Positions 50,595 through 63,472 of a stretch of DNA of 64,000 bases are shown here, in pieces (the first letter of the stretch is position 1; every line of letters begins with the position of its first letter). The notes below the pieces were generated by a model. It did not search any database. It worked only from the letters and a program-made list of their open reading frames with translations, and had not been told where the DNA came from. This stretch comes from Flavihumibacter petaseus NBRC 106054 (GTDB lineage: Bacteria > Bacteroidota > Bacteroidia > Chitinophagales > Chitinophagaceae), in NCBI RefSeq assembly GCF_000974785.1, contig NZ_BBWV01000002.1:248001-312000 (forward strand), given 5' to 3'. The position numbers and the translations under genes are program-made.

Positions 50595-50671
50595 GCGCGC
50601 AAAGATTTTACGCAGGAATTTTTGGGTTTTGAGTCATGCACGGGCGGCGCTGCGCGCCTTTTTTTGTTTCG

Positions 50672-50815
50672 CGCAAAGCACGCCAGGGTGCAAAGGCGCA
50701 AAATAGAAGTATGGTTGAAATTGATTGCTGCTTCCCGAGTATAAAATTTTTCGGGCCCAACAAAGTTACTCTCAGATACATTTCCCTTGCGCCTTTGCAC
50801 CTTGGCGTCTTTGCG
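50672..50815. repeat. Inverted-repeat element, copy upstream of polX
   Basis: The left arm (50672-50701) and right arm (50787-50815) are complementary over about 29 bases with one mismatch (which would be a G-U pair in RNA) and one extra base. The spacer is 85 bases. Related words extend to either side: GCGCAAAG at 50595-50602, and CTTTGCGGG and CCTTTGCCGG at about 50823-50845. Confidence 0.75.
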
Positions 50816-52564: not shown

Positions 52565-52655
52565 GTGGTGGTGATAGGGGTATTCACATGCGGTGTGTTT
52601 CCCGTAAGTATTGATTGACTATGTAATGCTGCGCATTTGGCGGCTCTGTTGCATT

Positions 52656-52923
52656 TTTTTCACGCCAGGTCGCAAAGGAGCAAAGGCGCAAATTTATTAG
52701 GAGTTGCGGCGTTGTTTCGGTTTGTTTGGGAACGGGTAAATGCGAAGGGTCAAACTTTGGTTATTGGGTAGTCATGTTAGAATTTTGTTCCATTTCAATG
52801 CCGGCGGATCGGCAACCCGACAAGAGATTCGGCCCACTACGGTCAGCCCGGGTAGAAATTAGGAAACCTTTTTTTTACACCTATCCTTTGCGATTTTGCT
52901 CCTTTGCGACCTGGCGTGAAAAA
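52656..52923. repeat. Inverted-repeat element with perfect 28-bp arms
   Basis: Left arm 52656-52683 and right arm 52896-52923 are perfect reverse complements (28 of 28): TTTTTCACGCCAGGTCGCAA at the start of the left arm. The spacer is 212 bases and holds no credible gene. The rest of the gap 52565-53050 is otherwise empty. Confidence 0.85.
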
Positions 52924-53050
52924 CGTGCAACCAGGTCTGAAAACTGAGACTAAAGCCACACATTCCCTGCGTGAAGCCAGGGTACTGGAGCAGAAGGAAT
53001 AACATTTAATAGCGGGAAGTGAAGGGGGAAGCGCAAATTGCGGCCTTTTT

Positions 53051-53111: not shown

Positions 53112-53360
53112 TTATTTGCCAGCTGCTTTCTTAGCGATAGCTTTACGAACAACAGCTCTCTTGATAGCTTTCTTAACGACAGCCTTCTTGATTGCTTTTT
53201 TAACGACTGCTTTCTTAACTGCTTTTTTAACAGCAGCTTTCTTAACAGCCTTTTTAACTACGGCTTTCTTAACAGCTTTTTTAACTACAGCTTTTTTAAC
53301 GGCTTTCTTAACAGCCTTTTTTGCTACAGCTTTTTTAACGGCTTTTTTTGCAGTTGCCAT
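53112..53360 (-). CDS. Lys/Ala-repeat protein, histone H1-like
   Basis: An 82-residue protein made almost only of Lys, Ala, Val and a few Ile/Arg, in tandem units of the form VVKKAVKKA and KKAIKKA. Predicted pI is extreme. This composition is like the basic tail of histone H1 and of bacterial nucleoid proteins such as chlamydial HC2 and the AlgP/H1-like proteins. Binding to DNA or RNA in the nucleoid is likely but inferred from composition. It stands 99 bases after rpmA and has its own terminator. Confidence 0.8.
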   Translation of the reverse strand: MATAKKAVKKAVAKKAVKKAVKKAVVKKAVKKAVVKKAVKKAAVKKAVKKAVVKKAIKKAVVKKAIKRAVVRKAIAKKAAGK

Positions 53361-54200: not shown

Positions 54201-55697
54201 ATGAAATTCAAGTCTTTTCTTGCCAAACCGTTTGCGGCATACGTGGTAAAACAGATCCGGCGGTCCATGCAACAGGCAGTTCCCGACCAGGAAGCTATCT
54301 TTCAGGATCTCCTTAAAACCGGCGCCCATACTCAATTTGGCAAGGATCACCGGCTCGAAGAGGGCATGTCCCTGGCAGCCTACCGCCAGGCGGTCCCCAT
54401 CCGCGACTACGAATCCCTGAAGCCTTATATCAACCAGATCAAGGAAGGGAAGCATAATATATTATGGAAAGGTCAGCCGCTTTACCTGGCCAAAACCTCC
54501 GGAACCACTTCCGGCGTCAAATACATTCCCATTTCCAAAGAATCCATGCCCAACCATTTCAATACGGGCAGAAATGCAGTTTTCTGCAACCTCACCGAAA
54601 TGGGCAGCACCCGGGTCTTTGACGGGAAAATGATCTTTTTATCGGGGTCCCCGGAACTCGAAAGGGTAGGGGGCATCCCCACCGGACGCCTCAGCGGCAT
54701 CGTTAATCACCAGATTCCCAGTTACCTGCGTACCAACCAGCTACCCACCTACGAGACGAACTGTATCGACGAATGGGAGACCAAACTCGACCGGATCGTA
54801 GAGGAGACCATCGATCAGAACATGACCCTGATCAGTGGTATCCCGCCATGGATGCAGATGTATTTTGACCGCCTGACCCAACGCAGCGGTAAAAAAGTGG
54901 GTGACCTGTTCCCCGAATTCTCCGTGCTGGTTCACGGCGGCGTTAATTTCGAACCCTACCGTGCCCGCCTGCTGGAGACCATCGGCCGCCCCGTTGCCAC
55001 CATTGAAACTTTCCCGGCTTCTGAAGGCTTTTTCGCTTTCCAGGATTCACAACTATCAGAAGGCCTGTTGCTGAATACCAACAGCGGCATATTCTTCGAA
55101 TTCGTACCGGTAGGTGAGATCTTCTCTGAAAACCCCACCCGTCTTTCCCTGCCGGAGGTGAAAACAGGAGAGAATTACGCACTCATCATCAACAGTAACG
55201 CCGGGCTCTGGAGTTATAATATTGGTGATACCGTACGATTCGTTTCCCTGAATCCCTACCGGATCGTCGTTACCGGGCGCATCAAACATTTCATCTCCGC
55301 TTTCGGCGAACATGTGATTGGTGAAGAAGTGGAATACAGCCTCATGAAAGCCGCCACCGAGTCGGGTGTTCATATCACAGAATTTACTGTAGCACCCATG
55401 ATTTCGCAACAGGAAGGCAAAAGCTACCATGAGTGGTTCGTGGAGTTCGATCACGCACCCGATGACCTGGAAGCCTTTGCCGGCAAAGTGGATGGGAACC
55501 TCCGCAATAAGAACATCTATTATGACGACCTGATCACCGGCAATATCCTTCTGCCCCTGAAAATCAGGCCTGTCCGCCGCAACGGCTTTATCGAATACAT
55601 GAAAGCACAGGGTAAACTCGGTGGTCAGAATAAAGTTCCGCGCCTGAGCAACGACAGAAGCCTGGCAACTGCGCTGGAGTCTTTTGTGGAACAATAA
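54201..55697 (+). CDS. GH3-family acyl-adenylating protein (auxin-responsive GH3 homologue)
   Basis: A 498-residue member of the ANL-like GH3 family, named after plant hormone-conjugating enzymes. The ATP-binding P-loop-like motif is LAKTSGTTSGVKYIP. Later come the ETFPASEGFFAF segment and the C-terminal hinge RIVVTGRIKHFISAFGEHV. In bacteria the acyl acid and acceptor are unknown; an amide or thioester synthesis is likely. No linked pathway genes. The start is fixed by the -7 box at 54169-54176. Confidence 0.88.
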   Translation: MKFKSFLAKPFAAYVVKQIRRSMQQAVPDQEAIFQDLLKTGAHTQFGKDHRLEEGMSLAAYRQAVPIRDYESLKPYINQIKEGKHNILWKGQPLYLAKTSGTTSGVKYIPISKESMPNHFNTGRNAVFCNLTEMGSTRVFDGKMIFLSGSPELERVGGIPTGRLSGIVNHQIPSYLRTNQLPTYETNCIDEWETKLDRIVEETIDQNMTLISGIPPWMQMYFDRLTQRSGKKVGDLFPEFSVLVHGGVNFEPYRARLLETIGRPVATIETFPASEGFFAFQDSQLSEGLLLNTNSGIFFEFVPVGEIFSENPTRLSLPEVKTGENYALIINSNAGLWSYNIGDTVRFVSLNPYRIVVTGRIKHFISAFGEHVIGEEVEYSLMKAATESGVHITEFTVAPMISQQEGKSYHEWFVEFDHAPDDLEAFAGKVDGNLRNKNIYYDDLITGNILLPLKIRPVRRNGFIEYMKAQGKLGGQNKVPRLSNDRSLATALESFVEQ

Positions 55698-55726
55698 TCC
55701 TGCCCCCAGGCTAAATCTCTGCAAGC

Positions 55727-56050
55727 AGTGTTTTTCACGCAGTGTTTTTCACGCAATGGCGCCTTTGGCACCAAGCAAAGGGGCAAAGGCGCAAAGATTT
55801 TTTGAAATTGGTGATAGTATGGATGCTGCAAGCATTGCGATTTCCAAATTATTGCGCGGGGCACATAACCTGTTAAGCACACCTCAAGAATTTTCGCGGA
55901 TCCAACCCGCCATTACGAAGCGAACCTTTGCGATCTTCCAGCCGCAGGCTGGTAAACTTTCGGGTGTAAAACCCTCCGTATGTTGCATCGCTATCAGCTC
56001 CATTGTCTGCAAATTCTTTGCGGCTTTGCCCCTTAGCGTGCTTTGCGTGA
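55727..56050. repeat. Inverted-repeat element upstream of the arginine promoter
   Basis: The inner arms 55778-55797 and 56015-56034 match in 19 of 20 positions as reverse complements. The outer ends also pair (TTTTCACGCAA near 55747-55757 with TTGCGTGAAAA near 56043-56053). The left arm begins with a tandem duplication of the 14-base unit AGTGTTTTTCACGC (55727-55754). The 217-base spacer has no credible gene. It ends about 75 bases before the arginine promoter. Confidence 0.75.
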
Positions 56051-56124
56051 AAACAAAAACGCCCTGCGTGAAACCCGTAAAGCTTACGCTTGTTAGCCTC
56101 AGCCGCTGAGTTTTATATATTTTT

Positions 56125-56158
56125 TTTGCCTGCATTCCGGCAAAATCGTATAATTTTG
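56125..56158 (+). promoter_or_regulatory. Promoter of the arginine operon
   Basis: TTTG (56125-56128), 22 bases, then TAATTTTG (56151-56158), a full Bacteroidetes promoter. Transcription would start near 56162, giving a leader of about 240 bases before the first enzyme gene. Confidence 0.75.
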
Positions 56159-56187
56159 GCGAGCAAATTAAAAACACTGGCGTAAAG

Positions 56188-56295
56188 ATGAAAGCATTCC
56201 AACAACATAGTGCCCCTGTTCAGATGAACGGCCTGGTTGTATTCTCCCCGGAAGCTACCCTTTGTTTGTACCCGCGACCGCGACGTGGTTGCTGA
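56188..56295 (+). CDS. Putative arginine leader peptide (35 residues)
   Basis: A short frame beginning at ATG 26 bases after the predicted transcription start. The peptide starts MKAFQQHSAPVQMNG and ends CLYPRPRRGC, with three Arg codons (CGA, CGA, CGT at 56275-56286) among the last five. The stop codon TGA (56293-56295) lies in the 5' arm of a hairpin. Position upstream of a complete arginine operon and clustering of Arg codons just before a hairpin are the marks of ribosome-mediated attenuation. It is too short to be a typical enzyme or domain. No homologue was searched. Confidence 0.65.
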   Translation: MKAFQQHSAPVQMNGLVVFSPEATLCLYPRPRRGC

Positions 56296-56366
56296 TAGGA
56301 CGAGCCCTTTGCACCGGCCCCTATCAGTGAAAAAAGCCCCGAGACTTTTTTACACACCACTGGTGT
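56292..56366 (+). promoter_or_regulatory. Candidate attenuator of the arginine operon
   Basis: Three hairpins follow the Arg codons. First, CTGATAGG / CCTATCAG (56292-56299 with 56320-56327), which includes the leader stop. Second, an A/T stem AAAAAAG / CTTTTTT (56330-56336 with 56345-56351) that ends in a T tract. Third, ACACC / GGTGT (about 56354-56366). The loop of the first (56311-56317) can also pair with 56360-56366 (7 bp, two G-U), which would exclude the third. A GC-rich canonical terminator is not evident, so the exact mechanism is uncertain. Confidence 0.5.
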
Positions 56367-56404
56367 ACCGCTAAAAACATCTTCTGATCCTTAATTTATT
56401 GCCG

Positions 56405-57133
56405 TTGGAAACAACATCCATTATCGTGAGGGTAGCCACTCCCGATGATATCCATTTTGCATCCACCATCACTGATGAGATGGAATCTTCCGCAAAAGCG
56501 AGGGGAACCGGTATCGCTAAAAGATCGCCGGACTATATCGCTGAAAAAATGCGCGAAGGAAAGGCAGTGATCGCCCTGACTGACACCGGAACATGGGTAG
56601 GCTTCTGTTATATCGAAACCTGGAGCCATGGAGAATATGTGGCGAATTCCGGGCTGATCGTATCCCCAAATTTCAGGAAGAGCGGTGTAGCCAAACGCAT
56701 TAAGGAATGCACCTTCAAATTGTCGCGGGAAAAATTCCCGAATGCCAAACTGTTCGGTCTCACCACCGGCCTCGCCGTCATGAAGATCAACAGCGACCTG
56801 GGATACGAACCGGTGACCTATTCCGAACTCACGCAGGACGAAGCCTTCTGGGCCGGCTGCAAAAGCTGTGTCAACTTTGACATCCTTACCAGCAAGGAAA
56901 GAAAAAACTGCCTCTGCACCGCCATGCTCTACGATCCCAAAGATCATTACAAGCCCGAGGAAACTGCTGAAGATTTCAAGCAGCATTCCAAAGCCTATGA
57001 GCGCCTGCTGCGGTTCAAACAATCCCGCTTCCTCAAGGTCTTCAAGAAAAAGCAGGCCCAGGAAAATGCCGGAGGCGGTGATGCCGGTAAGAAAAAAATG
57101 TTCGCTGCACTTAGCTCCCTTTTTCATTTTTAA
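56405..57133 (+). CDS. GNAT-family acyltransferase, probable N-acylglutamate synthase of the arginine pathway
   Basis: A 242-residue GNAT protein, first gene of the arginine operon. It has the acyl-CoA motif (VSPNFRKSGVAKRIKE) and the ARGTGIAKRSPDYI segment seen in Bacteroidetes homologues that sit in front of arg genes. I recall that a Bacteroides thetaiotaomicron homologue (BT3761) was assigned as N-succinylglutamate synthase from mutant fitness data. A Cys cluster (CKSC, then NCLC) follows the catalytic core; it may bind metal. The last 40 residues are basic. No ATG is available at the 5' end; TTG at 56405 fits the homologues, TTG at 56399 is possible. Confidence 0.8.
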   Translation: METTSIIVRVATPDDIHFASTITDEMESSAKARGTGIAKRSPDYIAEKMREGKAVIALTDTGTWVGFCYIETWSHGEYVANSGLIVSPNFRKSGVAKRIKECTFKLSREKFPNAKLFGLTTGLAVMKINSDLGYEPVTYSELTQDEAFWAGCKSCVNFDILTSKERKNCLCTAMLYDPKDHYKPEETAEDFKQHSKAYERLLRFKQSRFLKVFKKKQAQENAGGGDAGKKKMFAALSSLFHF

Positions 57134-57151
57134 AACTGTTCAATCGTCAAC

Positions 57152-58357
57152 ATGGCCAAAAAAGTAGTACTTGGATTCAGTGGTGGTCTCGATACAACCT
57201 TCTGTGTAAAATACCTCAGCGAAGACCGCGGATTTGAAGTGCATTCCATCATTGTGAATACTGGTGGTTTCACCAAAGAAGAACTGGACCAGATCGAGCA
57301 GCACGCGTATAAACTGGGCGTGAAAAGCCACACCACAGTAGATGCCGTCAAAGGATACTATGACCGGATCATCCGGTACCTCATATATGGTAATGTCCTC
57401 AAGAATAATACCTATCCCCTGAGTGTAAGCGCCGAGCGGCTCAGCCAGGCGATCCATATCGCCGAGCATGTGAAAAAGCTCAATGCCGATGCCGTAGCGC
57501 ACGGCAGCACCGGCGCCGGCAATGACCAGGTACGGTTCGATATGGTATTCCATATCATGATCCCCGGCGTGGAGATCATCACCCCCATCCGCGATCTGAA
57601 ACTCAGCCGGGAAGCAGAAATTGAATACCTGAAAAGCAAAGGCGTGAATATGAACGCCGAAAAAGCCAAATACAGTATCAATAAAGGTCTTTGGGGTACC
57701 AGCGTCGGCGGCAAAGAAACCCTTTCTTCCAATGGCATGCTGCCCGAATCCGCGTGGCCAACACAGGTAACCAAAACCACCGGCGAACAGGTGAAAGTTC
57801 ACTTTGAAAAAGGTGAGCTCACCGGCATTAATGACCGCACCTTCGATCACCCTTCCGATGCGATCCTCTTCCTGCAAAGCATTGCCGGTCCCTTTGGTAT
57901 CGGCCGTGACATTCATATCGGTGATACGATCATCGGCATCAAAGGGCGTGTGGGCTTTGAAGCTGCCGCGCCGATGGTGATCCTCAAAGCGCACCATGCG
58001 CTCGAAAAACATGTGCTTACCAAATGGCAGCTGAACTGGAAAGATCAGTTGGCACAGTTTTATGGCAACTGGTTGCATGAGGGGCAGATCCTCGACCCGG
58101 TAATGCGGGATATCGAAGCCTTCCTCGCCAATAGTCAGCAACAGGTGACCGGTGATGTATTTGTGGAACTGATGCCATACCGTTTCCAGGTGACCGGCAT
58201 CGAATCAGCCTTTGACCTGATGTCTTCCAGATTCGGCAAGTACGGTGAGATGAACAATGGCTGGTCAGGTGATGACGTAAGAGGCTTCAGTAAAATCTTT
58301 GGCAACCAGACTGCGATCTGGAACAGTGTGAACGAAGAGGCCAACAGCAAAAAGTAA
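57152..58357 (+). CDS. argG: Argininosuccinate synthase
   Basis: A 401-residue cytosolic enzyme that joins citrulline and aspartate with ATP to argininosuccinate. The ATP pyrophosphatase loop is GFSGGLDTTFC (residues 8-18). Other family regions are AVAHGSTGAGNDQVRFD and GRVGFEAAAPMVIL. It lies 18 bases after the GNAT gene and 18 bases before argC. Placement of argG ahead of argC is typical for Bacteroidetes arg clusters. Confidence 0.96.
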   Translation: MAKKVVLGFSGGLDTTFCVKYLSEDRGFEVHSIIVNTGGFTKEELDQIEQHAYKLGVKSHTTVDAVKGYYDRIIRYLIYGNVLKNNTYPLSVSAERLSQAIHIAEHVKKLNADAVAHGSTGAGNDQVRFDMVFHIMIPGVEIITPIRDLKLSREAEIEYLKSKGVNMNAEKAKYSINKGLWGTSVGGKETLSSNGMLPESAWPTQVTKTTGEQVKVHFEKGELTGINDRTFDHPSDAILFLQSIAGPFGIGRDIHIGDTIIGIKGRVGFEAAAPMVILKAHHALEKHVLTKWQLNWKDQLAQFYGNWLHEGQILDPVMRDIEAFLANSQQQVTGDVFVELMPYRFQVTGIESAFDLMSSRFGKYGEMNNGWSGDDVRGFSKIFGNQTAIWNSVNEEANSKK

Positions 58358-58375
58358 CATTCTAAACAGAAACAA

Positions 58376-59389
58376 GTGATCAAGGTCGGCATAATAGGAG
58401 GAGCAGGGTATACGGGCGGAGAACTGATCCGGCTGCTGGTACACCATCCCGCTGCTGAGATAACATTCGTACACAGCAAGAGCAGCGCTGGAAAACCTTT
58501 ATACAGCATTCACCATGACCTGCTGGGAGAAACAGAACAACTGTTCACCGGTGAGCTCAGCACGGATATTGATGTGTTATTTCTCTGTACCGGGCATGGC
58601 GAAGCGCGAAAATTCCTGGAAGCAAATACTTTTCCGGCAGGCGTGAAGATCATTGATCTGTCCAACGATTTCCGGCTGCAGGCAGGCAACAGCCTGGGCG
58701 ACCTGCAATTCGTTTACGGCCTTCCGGAACTGAACCGCGACAGGATCGCAGGCACTAACGGGCATGCCCCGGCGCAGGCGATTGCCAATCCGGGTTGCTT
58801 CGCTACGGCCATCCAGCTGGGGCTTTTACCACTGGCACATGCCGGGTTGCTGGATGAGATCTATACTACCGGCATCACCGGATCCACCGGGGCAGGACAA
58901 TCGCTCGCAGCTACTTCTCATTTCAGCTGGAGAGCCAATAATATCCAGGCGTACAAAACGCTGTCGCACCAGCACCTGGGAGAGATCGGCGAATCCCTGC
59001 AGCAATTACAGTCCGCCACGGTCAACGCGATTCCCGACAAGGCGATCGGTCTTCATTTTGTGCCCTGGCGCGGTGATTTTACAAGAGGGATATTTATCAG
59101 CTCCACCCTCACGCTCGACCGCCCGATCCGCGACCTGGTGGCCCTTTATAAAGAATTTTACAAAGGACATCCGTTTACGCATGTCGCCGACGATACCATT
59201 TTTCTCAAGCAGGTGGTGAACACCAACAAAGCGGTGATCCACCTGGAAAAAGCCGGAACCAAACTCGTTGTGCACAGCGCGATCGACAATCTCCTGAAAG
59301 GAGCCAGCGGTCAGGCCGTGCAGAACATGAACCTGCTGTTCGGTGTTCCCGAAACAACAGGCCTCCAGCTGAAAGCAAACTATTTTTAA
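58376..59389 (+). CDS. argC: N-acyl-gamma-glutamyl-phosphate reductase
   Basis: A 337-residue NADPH-dependent reductase from a GTG start. The nucleotide site is GIIGGAGYTGGELIRLL (residues 6-22), and the catalytic Cys141 lies in AIANPGCFATAIQ. It reduces N-acylglutamyl phosphate to the semialdehyde. Gap to argD is 18 bases. Confidence 0.96.
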   Translation: MIKVGIIGGAGYTGGELIRLLVHHPAAEITFVHSKSSAGKPLYSIHHDLLGETEQLFTGELSTDIDVLFLCTGHGEARKFLEANTFPAGVKIIDLSNDFRLQAGNSLGDLQFVYGLPELNRDRIAGTNGHAPAQAIANPGCFATAIQLGLLPLAHAGLLDEIYTTGITGSTGAGQSLAATSHFSWRANNIQAYKTLSHQHLGEIGESLQQLQSATVNAIPDKAIGLHFVPWRGDFTRGIFISSTLTLDRPIRDLVALYKEFYKGHPFTHVADDTIFLKQVVNTNKAVIHLEKAGTKLVVHSAIDNLLKGASGQAVQNMNLLFGVPETTGLQLKANYF

Positions 59390-59407
59390 ACCGATAAAAG
59401 ACGCCAG

Positions 59408-60571
59408 ATGAAATTATTCGACGTTTATCCCCTGAACAACATCACCATCGAAAAGGCCAGTGGCTCCAGAGTATGGGATGACCAGGGAAATGCCTACCTG
59501 GACATGTACGGCGGTCATGCCGTAATCTCTATTGGTCATACCCATCCGCACTGGGTTAAACGAATCGAAGATCAGCTGGAACGCATCGCGTTTTATTCCA
59601 ACTCCGTACTCATCCCGCAACAGCGGGAACTGGCGGAAAAACTCGGCCATCTTTCCGGAAAGGAGAACTACCAGTTATTCCTTTGCAATTCCGGTGCGGA
59701 AGCCAATGAAAATGCCCTGAAACTCGCATCATTTCATACCGGCCGTAAAAAGGTCATTGCCTTCCGGAAATCCTTCCACGGAAGAACTTCCCTGGCCGTT
59801 GCCGCTACTGACAACCCGGCCATCGTGGCACCGGTAAACCAGACCGCTAATATCATCTTCCTTCCCTTCAACGATACGGATTCCCTCAAAGCCTGTTTCA
59901 AGGCACAGGGATCAGAGATCGCTGCAGTGATCGTGGAAGGTATCCAGGGTGTAGGTGGAATCAATGTGGCTACTGCGGAGTTCCTGCAGGCCATCCGTTC
60001 CTGCTGCGATGAATATGGTGCGGTGTATATCGCCGACAGTGTGCAGTGCGGTTACGGAAGAACCGGTAAGTTCTATTCTCACGATCATGCCGGTGTAGAC
60101 GCTGATATCTATTCTATGGCAAAGGGCATGGGCAACGGTTTCCCGGTAGCCGGTATTTCCATTGCACCGCACCTCCAGCCCAAATATGGTATGCTGGGCA
60201 CTACATTTGGTGGCAACCAGCTGGCCTGCGCTGCTGCATTGGCCGTGTTGGAAGTAATGGAAGCTGAAGACCTGATGGAAAAAGCGGCTGAAACCGGCGA
60301 ATACCTGATGGAAGCCCTGCGGCAATTACCCGGCATTTCCAATGTGCGGGGCGTGGGACTAATGATTGGTTTCGATGTTCCGGATAACCTGAAAGACCTG
60401 AAGAAGAACCTGCTCAGCAAACACCATATTTTCACCGGTGAAGCCAAACCCAATGTGATCCGCCTGCTGCCTTCCCTTGCGCTCAGCAAAGAAGAAGCAG
60501 ATGAGTTCCTGGAAGCGATCCGGGCAGAAATCACCACCCTTGAATTGTCGTCCACCCCAATTACCGCATAA
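59408..60571 (+). CDS. argD: N-acylornithine aminotransferase
   Basis: A 387-residue class III PLP aminotransferase that transfers the amino group of glutamate to N-acylglutamate semialdehyde. The Schiff-base Lys239 is in SMAKGMGNGFP, and the phosphate-binding segment is NSGAEANENALKLA. Asp210 pairs with the cofactor ring (IADSVQCGYGRTGKFY); the usual Glu after this Asp is Ser. The stop codon and the argF' start overlap by one base (TAATG). Confidence 0.93.
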   Translation: MKLFDVYPLNNITIEKASGSRVWDDQGNAYLDMYGGHAVISIGHTHPHWVKRIEDQLERIAFYSNSVLIPQQRELAEKLGHLSGKENYQLFLCNSGAEANENALKLASFHTGRKKVIAFRKSFHGRTSLAVAATDNPAIVAPVNQTANIIFLPFNDTDSLKACFKAQGSEIAAVIVEGIQGVGGINVATAEFLQAIRSCCDEYGAVYIADSVQCGYGRTGKFYSHDHAGVDADIYSMAKGMGNGFPVAGISIAPHLQPKYGMLGTTFGGNQLACAAALAVLEVMEAEDLMEKAAETGEYLMEALRQLPGISNVRGVGLMIGFDVPDNLKDLKKNLLSKHHIFTGEAKPNVIRLLPSLALSKEEADEFLEAIRAEITTLELSSTPITA

Positions 60572-61557
60572 TGAATCATTTTGTTTCCGTTGCTGACGTA
60601 CCGGACATCCCGGCACTGGTCAGTAGGGCTTTAGCTTATAAGAACGACCCATACCAGGATGTGACCCTCGGTGAACGCAGGCGAATCGGCATGCTGTTCC
60701 TGAATCCTAGTATGCGGACGCGCCTCAGTACCCAGGTGGCAGCGCAACAGCTCGGCATGGAAGCCGTAGTGTTCAATGTGGGCAGTGAAGGCTGGGCCCT
60801 GGAATTCGAAGAGGAAGCAATTATGAGCGGCAACACAGTAGAACACGTGAAAGACGCAGCGCCGATCATGGGCAAATATTTTGACATCCTCTGCATCCGC
60901 ACCTTTCCATCCCTGAAGAACCGTGAAGACGATTACAGCGAACTGTATATTAACCAGTTTATCAAATACGCCGGCATTCCCATCGTGAGCCTGGAAAGCG
61001 CGACACTGCATCCGTTGCAGAGCTTTACCGATATCATCACGATCACAGAACAACTGGCACTGCAGGGCAAACTCGATACCGCTACCGGCAAGCCCGCACG
61101 GAAGCCGAAGATTGTGCTGACCTGGGCACCACATGTGAAGCCACTGCCGCAATGCGTAGCCAACAGCTTTGCTCAATGGGTGAATGCCTGGGGGGAAGCA
61201 GATTTCGTGATTACTCACCCTGAAGATTATGAACTCGAACCTTCCTTTACAAAGGGAGCTACCATCACACACGACCAGGATGAAGCACTGAAGGATGCAG
61301 ACTTCGTGTATGTTAAGAACTGGAGCACCTTCAACGACTACGGCAAGATCTATGTAAATGATCCCGAATGGATGCTCACCAACGAAAAACTGGCACTCAC
61401 CAACAATGCGAAAGTGATGCATTGCCTCCCGGTACGCCGTAATGTGGAACTCAGCGATGAGATTCTCGACGGACCGAACAGCATCGTGACTACACAGGCA
61501 GGTAACCGGGTGTGGGCAGCACAGGCCGTATTGTCGGAACTAATCCGCCGTAAATGA
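60571..61557 (+). CDS. argF': N-succinyl/acetylornithine transcarbamylase ArgF'
   Basis: A 328-residue transcarbamylase of the ArgF' type that uses N-acylornithine instead of ornithine. The carbamoyl-phosphate loop is NPSMRTRLS, with SATLHPLQSFTD and the C-terminal HCLPVRRNVE as further motifs. The specificity position (Pro90 in the Bacteroides fragilis succinylornithine enzyme, Glu92 in the Xanthomonas acetylornithine enzyme) is Val90 here (SGNTVEHV). Replacement of that Glu by Val, Pro, Ala or Ser is known to shift preference to the succinyl substrate (recall), so a succinylornithine transcarbamylase is likely. Stop overlaps argB by 4 bases. Confidence 0.93.
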   Translation: MNHFVSVADVPDIPALVSRALAYKNDPYQDVTLGERRRIGMLFLNPSMRTRLSTQVAAQQLGMEAVVFNVGSEGWALEFEEEAIMSGNTVEHVKDAAPIMGKYFDILCIRTFPSLKNREDDYSELYINQFIKYAGIPIVSLESATLHPLQSFTDIITITEQLALQGKLDTATGKPARKPKIVLTWAPHVKPLPQCVANSFAQWVNAWGEADFVITHPEDYELEPSFTKGATITHDQDEALKDADFVYVKNWSTFNDYGKIYVNDPEWMLTNEKLALTNNAKVMHCLPVRRNVELSDEILDGPNSIVTTQAGNRVWAAQAVLSELIRRK

Positions 61558-62345
61558 AACAGGTATTTGTCATCAAGATCGGCGGCAATGTGATCGATGA
61601 TCCCGAAGCGCTAAACAGTTTCCTGGAAGATTTCCACCGGATCGACTCCCCGAAAGTGCTGGTGCATGGCGGGGGCAAGATCGCCTCGAGGCTTGGCGAC
61701 CAGCTGGGCATCAAATCCAACTATGTTGACGGCAGGCGCATCACCGATGATGCTACCATTGACCTGGTAACAATGGTCTACGGCGGGCTTGTCAACAAGC
61801 AGGTCGTAGCGCAGCTGCAATCACTCGGATGCAATGCCATCGGTATCACGGGTGCTGATGCGAACCTGTTACCTGCCATTAAACGGCCCGTAAAAACCAT
61901 CGACTTTGGTTGGGTGGGCGATGTGGAAGCCGGAAAGATCCCTGTGAATCGCTGGCAGGTTTTGCTGGACAATGACTTTATTCCCGTACTCGCACCACTC
62001 ACCCACGATGGGCAGGGGCACATGCTCAATACGAATGCCGATACCATGGCTGCTGTGATCGCCGAAGCACTGAGTGTACAATACAATGTTCGCCTGCTGT
62101 ATTGTTTCGAGAAAAAAGGTATCCTGGAAGATGTCAATAATGACGCCTCCGTGATCACGCACCTTGACAGGAACAGCTATGCGACACTCCGGCAGGAAGG
62201 AAAATTGTTTGCCGGTATCCTGCCGAAACTCGATAACGCCTTCGCAGCGATCGACGCCGGCGTAAAGGAAGTACTGATCGGACACGCTGAAGACCTCCTT
62301 CAGAACACTACCACAAAAACCACCGGAACCCTCATCACCGCATGA
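61554..62345 (+). CDS. argB: N-acylglutamate kinase
   Basis: A 263-residue amino-acid kinase that phosphorylates N-acylglutamate. Family motifs: VIKIGGNVID (ATP site), VLVHGGGKIASRL, ITGADANLL and MLNTNADTMAAVIAEAL. It is on the short side, with no N-terminal extension of the arginine-inhibited hexameric form, so feedback inhibition by arginine through that helix is not expected (inference). ATGA overlaps link it to argF' before and argE after. Confidence 0.95.
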   Translation: MKQVFVIKIGGNVIDDPEALNSFLEDFHRIDSPKVLVHGGGKIASRLGDQLGIKSNYVDGRRITDDATIDLVTMVYGGLVNKQVVAQLQSLGCNAIGITGADANLLPAIKRPVKTIDFGWVGDVEAGKIPVNRWQVLLDNDFIPVLAPLTHDGQGHMLNTNADTMAAVIAEALSVQYNVRLLYCFEKKGILEDVNNDASVITHLDRNSYATLRQEGKLFAGILPKLDNAFAAIDAGVKEVLIGHAEDLLQNTTTKTTGTLITA

Positions 62346-63472
62346 GTCAAACGCAACTATATGCAGCAGCTATTGACCTGTTGCAGGAACTGATTCGCAT
62401 ACCCTCCCTCAGCAGGGAAGAAGAAGGAACGGCCACCGCTTTGGTGCAGTTCCTGGAGCGGCAGGGCGTAACAGCGCGGCGCAGCGGTAATAATGTCTGG
62501 GCATTCCCCCGGCATTTTGATCCCCGGAAACCCAGCCTGCTGCTGAACTCCCACCATGATACCGTGAAGCCCAATCCGCAATATACACGCCTGCCATTCG
62601 TACCGCAGGTGGAAGATGGCCGCCTCTATGGACTGGGATCCAATGATGCGGGCGGGCCACTGGTGGCGCTGATCGCCGCATTCCTGTTTTTCTATACGCA
62701 GCATGATCTTCCCTGGAATATTGTGCTGGCTGCGACCGCTGAAGAAGAGATCAGCGGTCTCAATGGGATCGAAGCGCTGCTGAAAGATGAAGCGTTTCTT
62801 GAGGCTGCCCGCACCAGCGATGGTGAAACTTTCCGTTTATGGTCGGCCATCGTAGGAGAGCCCACCCAGATGGAAATGGCGGTTTCCGAGAAAGGATTAC
62901 TGGTACTGGATGGCGTGGCAACCGGTAAAGCCGGGCACGCTGCGAGGGAAGAAGGCCTGAATGCACTTTACCTCGCCCTTAACGATATCAACTGGATCCG
63001 GAATTTTCAGTTTCCCGAAGTATCGCCAACACTGGGGCCGGTAAAGATGACCGTAACCGTGATCCAGACGGAGAATAATGCGCATAATGTTGTGCCGGCA
63101 GATTGCCGGTTCACCGTTGATATCCGGGTGACGGATAGTTATGCGCATGAAGAGATCCTTGAGATGGTTCGGAAGTCAGTCAGTTCCGTAATGACGCCGC
63201 GCAGTATGCGCCTGCGGGCAACGGCCATCGCAACGGACCATCCGCTGGTAGCAGCGGGGATTTCAATGGGAAAAGGATATTACGGGTCACCCACCAGTTC
63301 CGATAAAGCCCTCATGCCTTTCCCGGCACTCAAGTGTGGTCCCGGTGACAGCGCCCGGAGCCATACCGCCGATGAATTCATCTACCTTAGCGAAATCGAA
63401 AAAGGCATCGACGATTATATCACCCTCATTGGAAAAGCGATGACACTTCCTTTTCCGACAAGCGCTGCATAA
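62342..63472 (+). CDS. argE: M20-family N-acylornithine/N-acylcitrulline deacylase
   Basis: A 376-residue zinc hydrolase of the M20 family. The first metal-binding motif is NSHHDTVKP (His71, Asp73), then GSNDAGGPLVALIAA, then the catalytic Glu in AATAEEEISG. The dimerisation domain (about 185-295) is inserted as usual. With ArgF' in the pathway its natural substrate should be an N-acylcitrulline, cleaved to citrulline for ArgG. Its start overlaps argB by 4 bases; argH follows after 10 bases. Confidence 0.92.
   Translation: MSQTQLYAAAIDLLQELIRIPSLSREEEGTATALVQFLERQGVTARRSGNNVWAFPRHFDPRKPSLLLNSHHDTVKPNPQYTRLPFVPQVEDGRLYGLGSNDAGGPLVALIAAFLFFYTQHDLPWNIVLAATAEEEISGLNGIEALLKDEAFLEAARTSDGETFRLWSAIVGEPTQMEMAVSEKGLLVLDGVATGKAGHAAREEGLNALYLALNDINWIRNFQFPEVSPTLGPVKMTVTVIQTENNAHNVVPADCRFTVDIRVTDSYAHEEILEMVRKSVSSVMTPRSMRLRATAIATDHPLVAAGISMGKGYYGSPTSSDKALMPFPALKCGPGDSARSHTADEFIYLSEIEKGIDDYITLIGKAMTLPFPTSAA

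Follow-up and report, generated by a model that had tools for sequence, protein, structure and literature searches.

The arginine operon of Flavihumibacter petaseus NBRC 106054 is preceded by a short leader frame with arginine codons near its end, and this leader is probably a cis-acting, ribosome-operated arginine sensor of that operon. Comparison of related sequences indicates that the leader is real and strongly conserved. It lies in the window, i.e. the whole stretch of 64,000 nucleotides analysed here, taken from a genome of 22 contigs which, together with its nearest relatives, we take to belong to the Chitinophagaceae. The features of the locus are the following.

56125..56158, forward strand: promoter, TTTG-N22-TAATTTTG (sequence; alignment of relatives)
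56188..56295, forward strand: leader peptide frame, MKAFQQHSAPVQMNGLVVFSPEATLCLYPRPRRGC and stop (list of open reading frames; leader classes in relatives)
56275..56286, forward strand: regulatory codons CGA-CCG-CGA-CGT, Arg-Pro-Arg-Arg (sequence; codon counts)
56405..57133, forward strand: GNAT-family N-acyltransferase gene, first structural gene of the operon (weak NCBIfam match; adjacency to argG)
57152..58357, forward strand: argG, argininosuccinate synthase (TIGR00032, 269.0 bits, above cut-off)
58376..63472, forward strand: argC, argD, N-acetylornithine carbamoyltransferase-type argF, argB and argE-type deacylase (open reading frames; NCBIfam)

The promoter, which we take to be of the Bacteroidota type, is composed of TTTG (56125-56128), a spacer of 22 nt and TAATTTTG (56151-56158), and the stretch TATAATTTTG in this region is unchanged in eight of the 11 nearest named relatives. 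The leader frame has 35 codons, with an ATG start and a TGA stop (56293-56295) situated in the 5' arm (56292-56299) of an 8-bp hairpin, the 3' arm of which is at 56320-56327; the distance from this stop to the GNAT start is 109 bases. The promoter, the 35-codon frame, the CGA-CCG-CGA-CGT run and the stop inside a hairpin arm had all been proposed in the original prediction, the coordinates of which are correct in the sequence. The operon extends from 56405 to 63472 in the order GNAT-argG-argC-argD-argF-argB-argE types. The NCBIfam N-acetyltransferase match of the GNAT gene is weak and under its cut-off, while argC and argB pass theirs and the argD, argF-type and argE-type genes remain below. 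GNAT adjoins argG on the same strand in all 59 loci tested, window included. For its start codon, TTG 56405 is preferred to TTG 56399, as the start codon of the relatives aligns with the former.

Of 244 family genomes, 194 have a GNAT homologue, and 110 upstream regions were examined, namely those of the 30 best matches and of 80 loci chosen by hand, mostly one per genus. A leader frame of one of three classes is present in 106 of the 110, with Arg codons near the end in each class. Class I (n=65) resembles the window, with the stop within a CTGAYAGG stem; class II (n=28) has a tail of RR, then P or Q, then R and one further residue; class III (n=13) has the tail VRR. The classes were set by regular expressions written after a first look, and the criterion for class I is the hairpin stem at the stop, not arginine. 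As regards the four unclassed loci, one is class II-like (L063), one includes an unread stretch (L076) and two are without a leader (L077 and L101). Class I-III leaders occur in 79 of 80 named loci (62, 9 and 8, respectively), and the 80th, Flavihumibacter solisilvae (L212), carries a class I leader in which TGA has become TGG and the next codon is TAG. It was also observed that the hairpin of this species retains a G-U pair at the site of the moved stop. By GNAT protein, the 11 nearest named loci include nine named Flavihumibacter, with F. solisilvae at 85% identity.

Arginine enrichment was assessed with a residue-blind test, requiring a frame of 20-60 aa, a stop 40-190 bases before the GNAT match and at least three copies of one residue in the last 10. 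The test set was formed by 109 of the 110 family loci (L076 was dropped for its unread bases) plus L147, and the thresholds were fixed after the Arg tails were known, which makes the test blind to the residue, not to the geometry. An Arg tail passes in 95 of 110 loci, whereas dinucleotide shuffles predict 2.6 and the reverse strand gives 3; arginine is by far the most enriched tail residue, followed by proline (9, with 3.7 expected) and valine (7, with 2.5 expected). All 65 class I leaders have at least one Arg within the last 12 codons, and in 57 of them an Arg stands at position -4 from the stop; two tails (L060 and L108) have one Arg only in the last 12 residues, that of L108 at -8. The proposal of an arginine-responsive leader peptide, with Arg codons just 5' of an RNA structure, is therefore well served by its relatives, where the frame, the Arg codons and the stop-overlapping hairpin are all kept. 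A lack of conservation in relatives, which the original prediction had named as its refutation, was looked for and was not seen.

On the broader scale of the class, GNAT was found in 116 of 345 genomes. The upstream regions from other Bacteroidia families, 64 of 109 GNAT genomes and 34 families, pass the Arg test in 30 cases against 2.0 expected, and the passes span 19 families, with endings such as YIRR, CPRR, FRRPSGV and RLRV directly before the stop. The strict test is failed by the other 34 loci, and neither the strict nor the relaxed test gave a leader match in families f12, f17, f23, f27, f34, f54, f55, f58, f61, f69 and f72.

The choice of arginine codon in these tails is strongly biased towards CGA, a rare codon. 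Among the final nine codons of the 106 leaders there are 327 for Arg, and 166 of them are CGA; the corresponding counts are 12 of 295 in the GNAT stretches of 28 family loci and 5 of 146 across nine window genes. In class II, codons -5 and -4 are both CGA in 28 of 28 leaders, with later Pro, Arg and Ile codons varying synonymously, and in class III the pair CGA-CGT is found in 13 of 13. Since tRNA-Arg genes with anticodons ACG, CCG, TCT and CCT were found and none with TCG among the 40 resolved of 41 tRNA matches, CGA should be readable only by the inosine-34 tRNA-Arg(ICG) among the tRNA-Arg genes found. Decoding of CGA by inosine involves a slow I:A wobble, and such heavy use of this codon makes a theory of leader codon choice directly testable.

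Around and beyond the stop codon, the following RNA elements were considered.

56213..56244, forward strand: hairpin and U-rich stretch inside the frame, candidate RNA polymerase pause (fold, -5.9 kcal/mol)
56274..56292, forward strand: hairpin over the Arg codons, GCGACCGC with GUGGUUGC (fold)
56292..56327, forward strand: stop-codon hairpin P1, CUGAUAGG (ACGA) GCC ... GGC C CCUAUCAG (RNAalifold; shuffles)
56310..56317, forward strand: P1 loop strand UGCACCGG, possible partner of 56360-56367 (fold; covariation)
56330..56351, forward strand: A/T hairpin and T tract, probably not a working part (fold; relatives)
56354..56366, forward strand: third small hairpin, ACACC-ACU-GGUGU (alignment with 11 close relatives)
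56360..56367, forward strand: downstream strand CUGGUGUA, pairing with the P1 loop or locally in the third hairpin (folds; alignment of relatives)

In the window P1 folds at -12.5 kcal/mol, with 1 of 200 shuffles as good, and the leader folds with a z-score of -2.26 (5 of 200 as good); for positions 56265-56400 the z-score is -3.17 and 0 of 200 shuffles are as good. Applied to the 61 distinct class I sequences, RNAalifold returned a single hairpin, which is P1, with 11 pairs, three of which show compensatory changes (alignments A1 and A2 hold 61 and 59 distinct rows, respectively, from the 65 class I leaders). The consensus consists of eight outer pairs, CUGAYAGG with CCURUCAG, a 4-base bulge (mostly ACGA) and three inner pairs. 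The eight outer pairs are formed in 61 of 61 sequences, seven of them invariant and the eighth swapping between C-G and U-A, a two-sided change in 22 sequences, while two inner pairs have 19 and 10 two-sided changes. The covariation score of P1 was reached by 0 of 500 shuffles, and sliding the partners cuts pairing from 98% to about 40% or less; another measure, that of pairs with a change on both sides, is matched by most shuffles (422 of 500 in A1 and 336 of 500 in alignment A4, described below), and these shuffle tests ignore the relatedness of the sequences. Rfam registered only three tRNAs in the window at the gathering score, with no match in the leader, and three matches in eight relatives at E<=1 (in L008 and L024), none within the leader.

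The loop of P1 may in turn pair with the downstream strand, forming a pseudoknot. A class I loop motif U-N-A-C-C and a motif U-G-G-U-N, located 28-54 bases 3' of P1, are found in 85 of 128 sequences; of the remaining 43, 22 have ACC only and 21 have neither motif. In the window, the pairing of UGCACCGG with CUGGUGUA arises in the fold of 56300-56405, from which the P1 5' arm is omitted, and the fold as a whole does not surpass shuffles (54 of 200 as good). Alignment A4 was built from the 85 class I sequences (of 128) which have ACC in the loop and GGNNTGGT downstream, and it has 54 distinct rows; this selection fixes by construction three of the loop pairs and one side of another. A variable loop pair is formed in 34 of these 54 rows, against 19.4 in shuffles, with 0 of 2000 as high and five pair types; it is one of four variable loop pairs, of which one alone beats shuffles, and two-sided change occurs only at pair 21/97. 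When the loop and 3' strand of P1 were tested as a duplex with the downstream stretch, the native mean was -10.5 kcal/mol against -9.4 kcal/mol for shuffled or swapped partners, a modest effect, with 95% of shuffles beaten in 11 of 65 leaders. RNAalifold run without the 5' arm of P1 gave no conserved competing fold of its 3' arm.

The remaining hairpins are less general. That over the Arg codons (56274..56292) reaches -10.4 kcal/mol, with 4 of 200 shuffles as good, and did not return in RNAalifold on the relatives; it could form only where no ribosome is present. The third small hairpin, with arms 56354-56358 and 56362-56366, folds at -4.7 kcal/mol (23 of 200 shuffles as good), and its pairing is kept in close relatives despite stem changes, e.g. 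ACAGTT/AACTGT and ACAAC/GTTGT, with compensatory changes in L215 and L222. A local fold of -2 kcal/mol or lower is reached by 37% of the 65 class I leaders and by 29% of shuffles, and in alignment A4 the hairpin is no better than shuffles. Because it hardly surpasses shuffles across class I, this hairpin, which had been predicted for the window and is indeed present there, is proposed as a feature of the closest relatives alone.

Further evidence comes from copies of the stem at a different locus. A covariance model (R1) built on P1, the last seven sense codons and the stop matched 78 places in 76 of the 244 family genomes, under filters liable to miss weak matches. Of these places, 71 are found no more than 250 bases 5' of a listed GNAT match, two weak ones precede proC and five are unassigned. 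The proC-side matches, L305:1009-1104 and the matching stretch of L306, belong to two genomes of one genus, and both genes behind them exceed the curated proC cut-off. Their leaders are MTGYNFHNASFVPCPPPGC and MTDHLSHISFSFPSPAPGC, each terminated by a stop and then followed by CTGACAGG...CCTGTCAGTGAA, with the endings ...VPCPPPGC and ...FPSPAPGC. The P1 stem is kept in both, together with a different leader of 19 aa and without the ACGA bulge and the ACC loop. Because one stem is coupled to an Arg tail at the arg genes and to a Pro tail at proC, these copies, from two genomes of one genus, are the strongest single argument for the codons, i.e. the tRNA, as the sensor. A proline leader as a general feature of proC was rejected, the stem being present in 0 of 30 proC loci of other genera (300 bases upstream; the best 30 of 84 genomes with a match).

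A scheme can be proposed on these grounds. When charged tRNA-Arg(ICG) is scarce, the leader ribosome would slow at the CGA-rich Arg codons. Toeprint geometry places the front edge of the ribosome about 15 bases from the first base of the P site. This edge would be near 56288, leaving P1 (56292-56327) free, for a ribosome that has the first CGA in its A site, and near 56306, covering the whole 5' arm, for one that has the stop there; an Arg at -4, as in 57 of 65 class I leaders, would bring the edge just to the foot of P1. A ribosome held at an unread Arg codon would thus have its front edge at or before the P1 foot, and P1 would fold, its loop pairing with the downstream UGGU. Under plentiful arginine, the ribosome would reach the UGA in the 5' arm and hold P1 open, and the loop strand would be free to pair otherwise. 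The two RNA states would set the amount of full-length, translatable GNAT-argG-argCDFBE mRNA, which presumably is greater under starvation. Both the stalling and the direction of control are what we infer from this arrangement.

The leader frame appears to be translated, because it is conserved and because of its pN/pS values, obtained as simple Nei-Gojobori pairwise sums. In the class I-HTK branch (30 sequences) pN/pS is 0.30 with pS 0.65, which indicates that the peptide, N-terminal part included, is under purifying selection, and constraint is weaker in class II (0.70) and class III (0.79). Arrest peptides which sense a ligand include the fungal arginine attenuator peptide and TnaC, and the leader could belong to this category, with the nascent chain sensing free arginine from the exit tunnel and stalling the ribosome near its own end. 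The amino acids of class I-HTK, conserved despite much synonymous change, would fit such a mechanism, as would class II, which ends in R-R-P/Q-R plus Ile, Leu or Asn with synonymous changes in the last three codons. However, the conserved N-terminal stretch of the class I-HTK peptides is absent from the window's leader, the identity of CGA is conserved where a peptide mechanism has no need of it, and at proC the stem is joined to another leader, of 19 aa and with a Pro tail, so that an arrest peptide is considered unlikely. Since plain codon sensing has no need of the purifying selection seen in those 30 class I leaders, effects of the nascent chain may nevertheless add to it.

How the two states of an arginine-sensing leader would act on the operon relates to the question of a terminator. 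The A/T hairpin and T tract at 56330-56351, put forward as a terminator by the original prediction, fold at only -1.7 kcal/mol, with 64 of 200 shuffles as good, and where the window has seven unbroken pairs, none of the 11 nearest named relatives has more than 3 to 5, though the left half AAAAAAGCCC is kept. This element was rejected as a terminator in view of its weak fold and lack of conservation in the close relatives, which leaves termination at this position unsupported. More generally, a conserved intrinsic terminator 3' of the leader was not found in the three classes: of the 65 class I leaders only 4 have a site predicted more than 20 bases past the stop, and such sites are predicted for 4 of the 28 leaders in class II and for 5 of the 13 in class III. 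As P1 has no conserved intrinsic terminator after it, the final step may be Rho-dependent termination, RNA decay or translation start. The arg leader differs in this from the hisG leader of the same genome, which has a terminator-like site; at hisG (L292), a His leader MKSFMQHHHHHFLPSR and stop, then a strong terminator-like hairpin with a T run, were observed by eye. For an ilvB-type gene of the source genome no leader was found in the 500 bases upstream, mostly another coding region.

The lack of a conserved terminator would also suit a leader that senses nothing and acts by translational coupling only, delivering ribosomes to a weak GNAT start or keeping Rho off. GNAT starts, by alignment position, are GTG in 37, TTG in 25 and ATG in 3 of the 65 class I loci, which is in keeping with such a role. 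Nonetheless, coupling leaves the Arg tail, the CGA bias and the Pro tail at proC unexplained, and in the window the leader stop is 109 bases ahead of the GNAT start; we regard it as very improbable. An arginine riboswitch, in which P1 and the loop pairing are an arginine-binding aptamer and the frame is incidental, would account for the bulge, mostly ACGA, and for the covarying loop pair, but it is hardly credible given that Arg tails are kept in classes II and III without a P1 of such sequence, and that the proC leaders combine the stem with Pro tails but lack both the ACGA bulge and the ACC loop.

Synchrony of ribosome and polymerase is described as essential in a model of attenuation (available text of PMC1183508). 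In the leaders, hairpin and U stretches are more frequent than in shuffles, at 0.49 per sequence for class I (shuffles 0.21), 0.93 for class II (shuffles 0.04) and 2.0 for class III (shuffles 0.29), the control being 12 sequences per class, shuffled twice, and they are mostly inside the leader frame in all three classes. All 13 class III leaders have such a stretch, which ends 40-42 bases 5' of the last base of the stop. These elements may hold RNA polymerase until the ribosome arrives, synchronising the two in a ribosome-operated leader. Terminator-like hairpins with a U run, located within the frame and 5' of the Arg codons, were also noticed in class III (e.g. L088) and, by eye, in L163 and L168.

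In some other bacteria, the control of arginine synthesis is a task of the ArgR protein. The ArgR model TIGR01529 matched 0 of 98 sampled family genomes, source genome included, while 9 of 14 control genomes match, a Bacteroides among them. Among the 345 genomes of the class, 15 have a match, which is strong (E 4e-36 or better) in 13 and above the curated cut-off in three; one argR read as a frame (L308) reached 128.9 bits against a cut-off of 130.45. GNAT is also present in nine of the 13 genomes with a strong match. Each of these nine has argR on the GNAT strand, 34-154 bases before the GNAT match, at the place that the leader has in other genomes (L307, L308 and L309 are among them). Five argR-bearing upstream regions failed the leader test, as expected because they are mostly argR. 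If true, the sensor would explain the control of arginine synthesis in a family where no ArgR was found. A wider reading, to which we give about even chances, is that of a Bacteroidia-wide module with an interchangeable codon tail (for Arg before the arg genes and, in one genus, for Pro before proC) and a stop-codon hairpin with loop pseudoknot, without an intrinsic terminator, in which inosine-decoded CGA would serve as a hypersensitive gauge and which would have been swapped with argR at the operon head in the course of evolution.

The proposed sensor shares several traits with known leaders. Classical trp, his, leu and ilv attenuators operate through competing RNA folds. As described in the available text of PMC1183508, they also have, like the arg leader, end-product codons near the leader end and a biased codon choice. 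In contrast with them, the arg leader is without a conserved downstream intrinsic terminator, its stop lies within the hairpin, and the loop appears to pair as a pseudoknot. The orf34 leader of Salmonella is also named speFL. It precedes speF and, according to the available portions of PMC6386406, is likewise a short frame with consecutive Arg codons; a hairpin 'downstream of stop' forms there when ribosomes pause on the Arg codons, whereas a pause at the stop prevents it, which resembles the scheme proposed here, and a rho-independent terminator was not found there, as no conserved one was here. The same portions report that it controls ornithine decarboxylase rather than arginine synthesis, that its peptide belongs to a gammaproteobacterial family (DUF2618) with the sensing Arg pair early in the frame, and that its arginine regulation is independent of rare or frequent Arg codons, unlike the CGA bias seen here.

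The LEU element of actinobacterial leuA, in the available text of PMC1262725, similarly combines end-product codons in a leader peptide with a conserved pseudoknot; it differs, by its description, in responding to leucine and in having a run of Leu codons which pairs with the Shine-Dalgarno box. That survey of Actinobacteria, in the same text, found no RNA structure conserved ahead of arginine operons and mentions T-boxes for arginine elsewhere. In rbfL of S. aureus, rare Arg codons of a leader peptide also sense arginine limitation, but the peptide has 8 residues and under limitation blocks translation of a biofilm regulator, with a sign opposite to that inferred here (PMC13009471, available text).

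Within the same phylum, the transcriptome of Flavobacterium psychrophilum gives strong clues for leader-peptide attenuation before amino-acid biosynthesis operons, with no arginine leader named in the available text (PMC9723704), and long 5' UTRs with short frames reminiscent of leader peptides are reported for B. thetaiotaomicron in the available part of PMC7366714. The string 'bacteroid' has 0 occurrences in the available text of PMC8632094. No described arginine leader of Bacteroidota was found in the literature searched, mostly without subscription papers, where an earlier mention is possible, and for this reason the arg leader may be regarded as a new form of ribosome-mediated leader control. 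Bacteroidia are a large group in which the control of amino-acid synthesis is poorly known, and the loci described offer natural experiments, i.e. the swap from an Arg to a Pro tail beside one stem, the exchange of ArgR for the leader at one operon, and the one-codon shift of the stop in F. solisilvae.

Other elements of the window were observed in the vicinity of the operon. Just 5' of it, at 54204-55697, is a GH3-type gene resembling the lyso-ornithine lipid synthetase OlsH, with 406.7 bits against a cut-off of 620, i.e. below it. Recurring stretches at about 50640-50720, 52611-52960 and 55700-56100 have chance translations sharing words like 'FFHARSQRSKGAKAQ', and are possibly a dispersed repeat of the source genome. 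Finally, on the reverse strand at 53112-53360, an 82-aa frame is made up almost entirely of Ala/Lys/Val repeats and resembles a histone H1-type tail.
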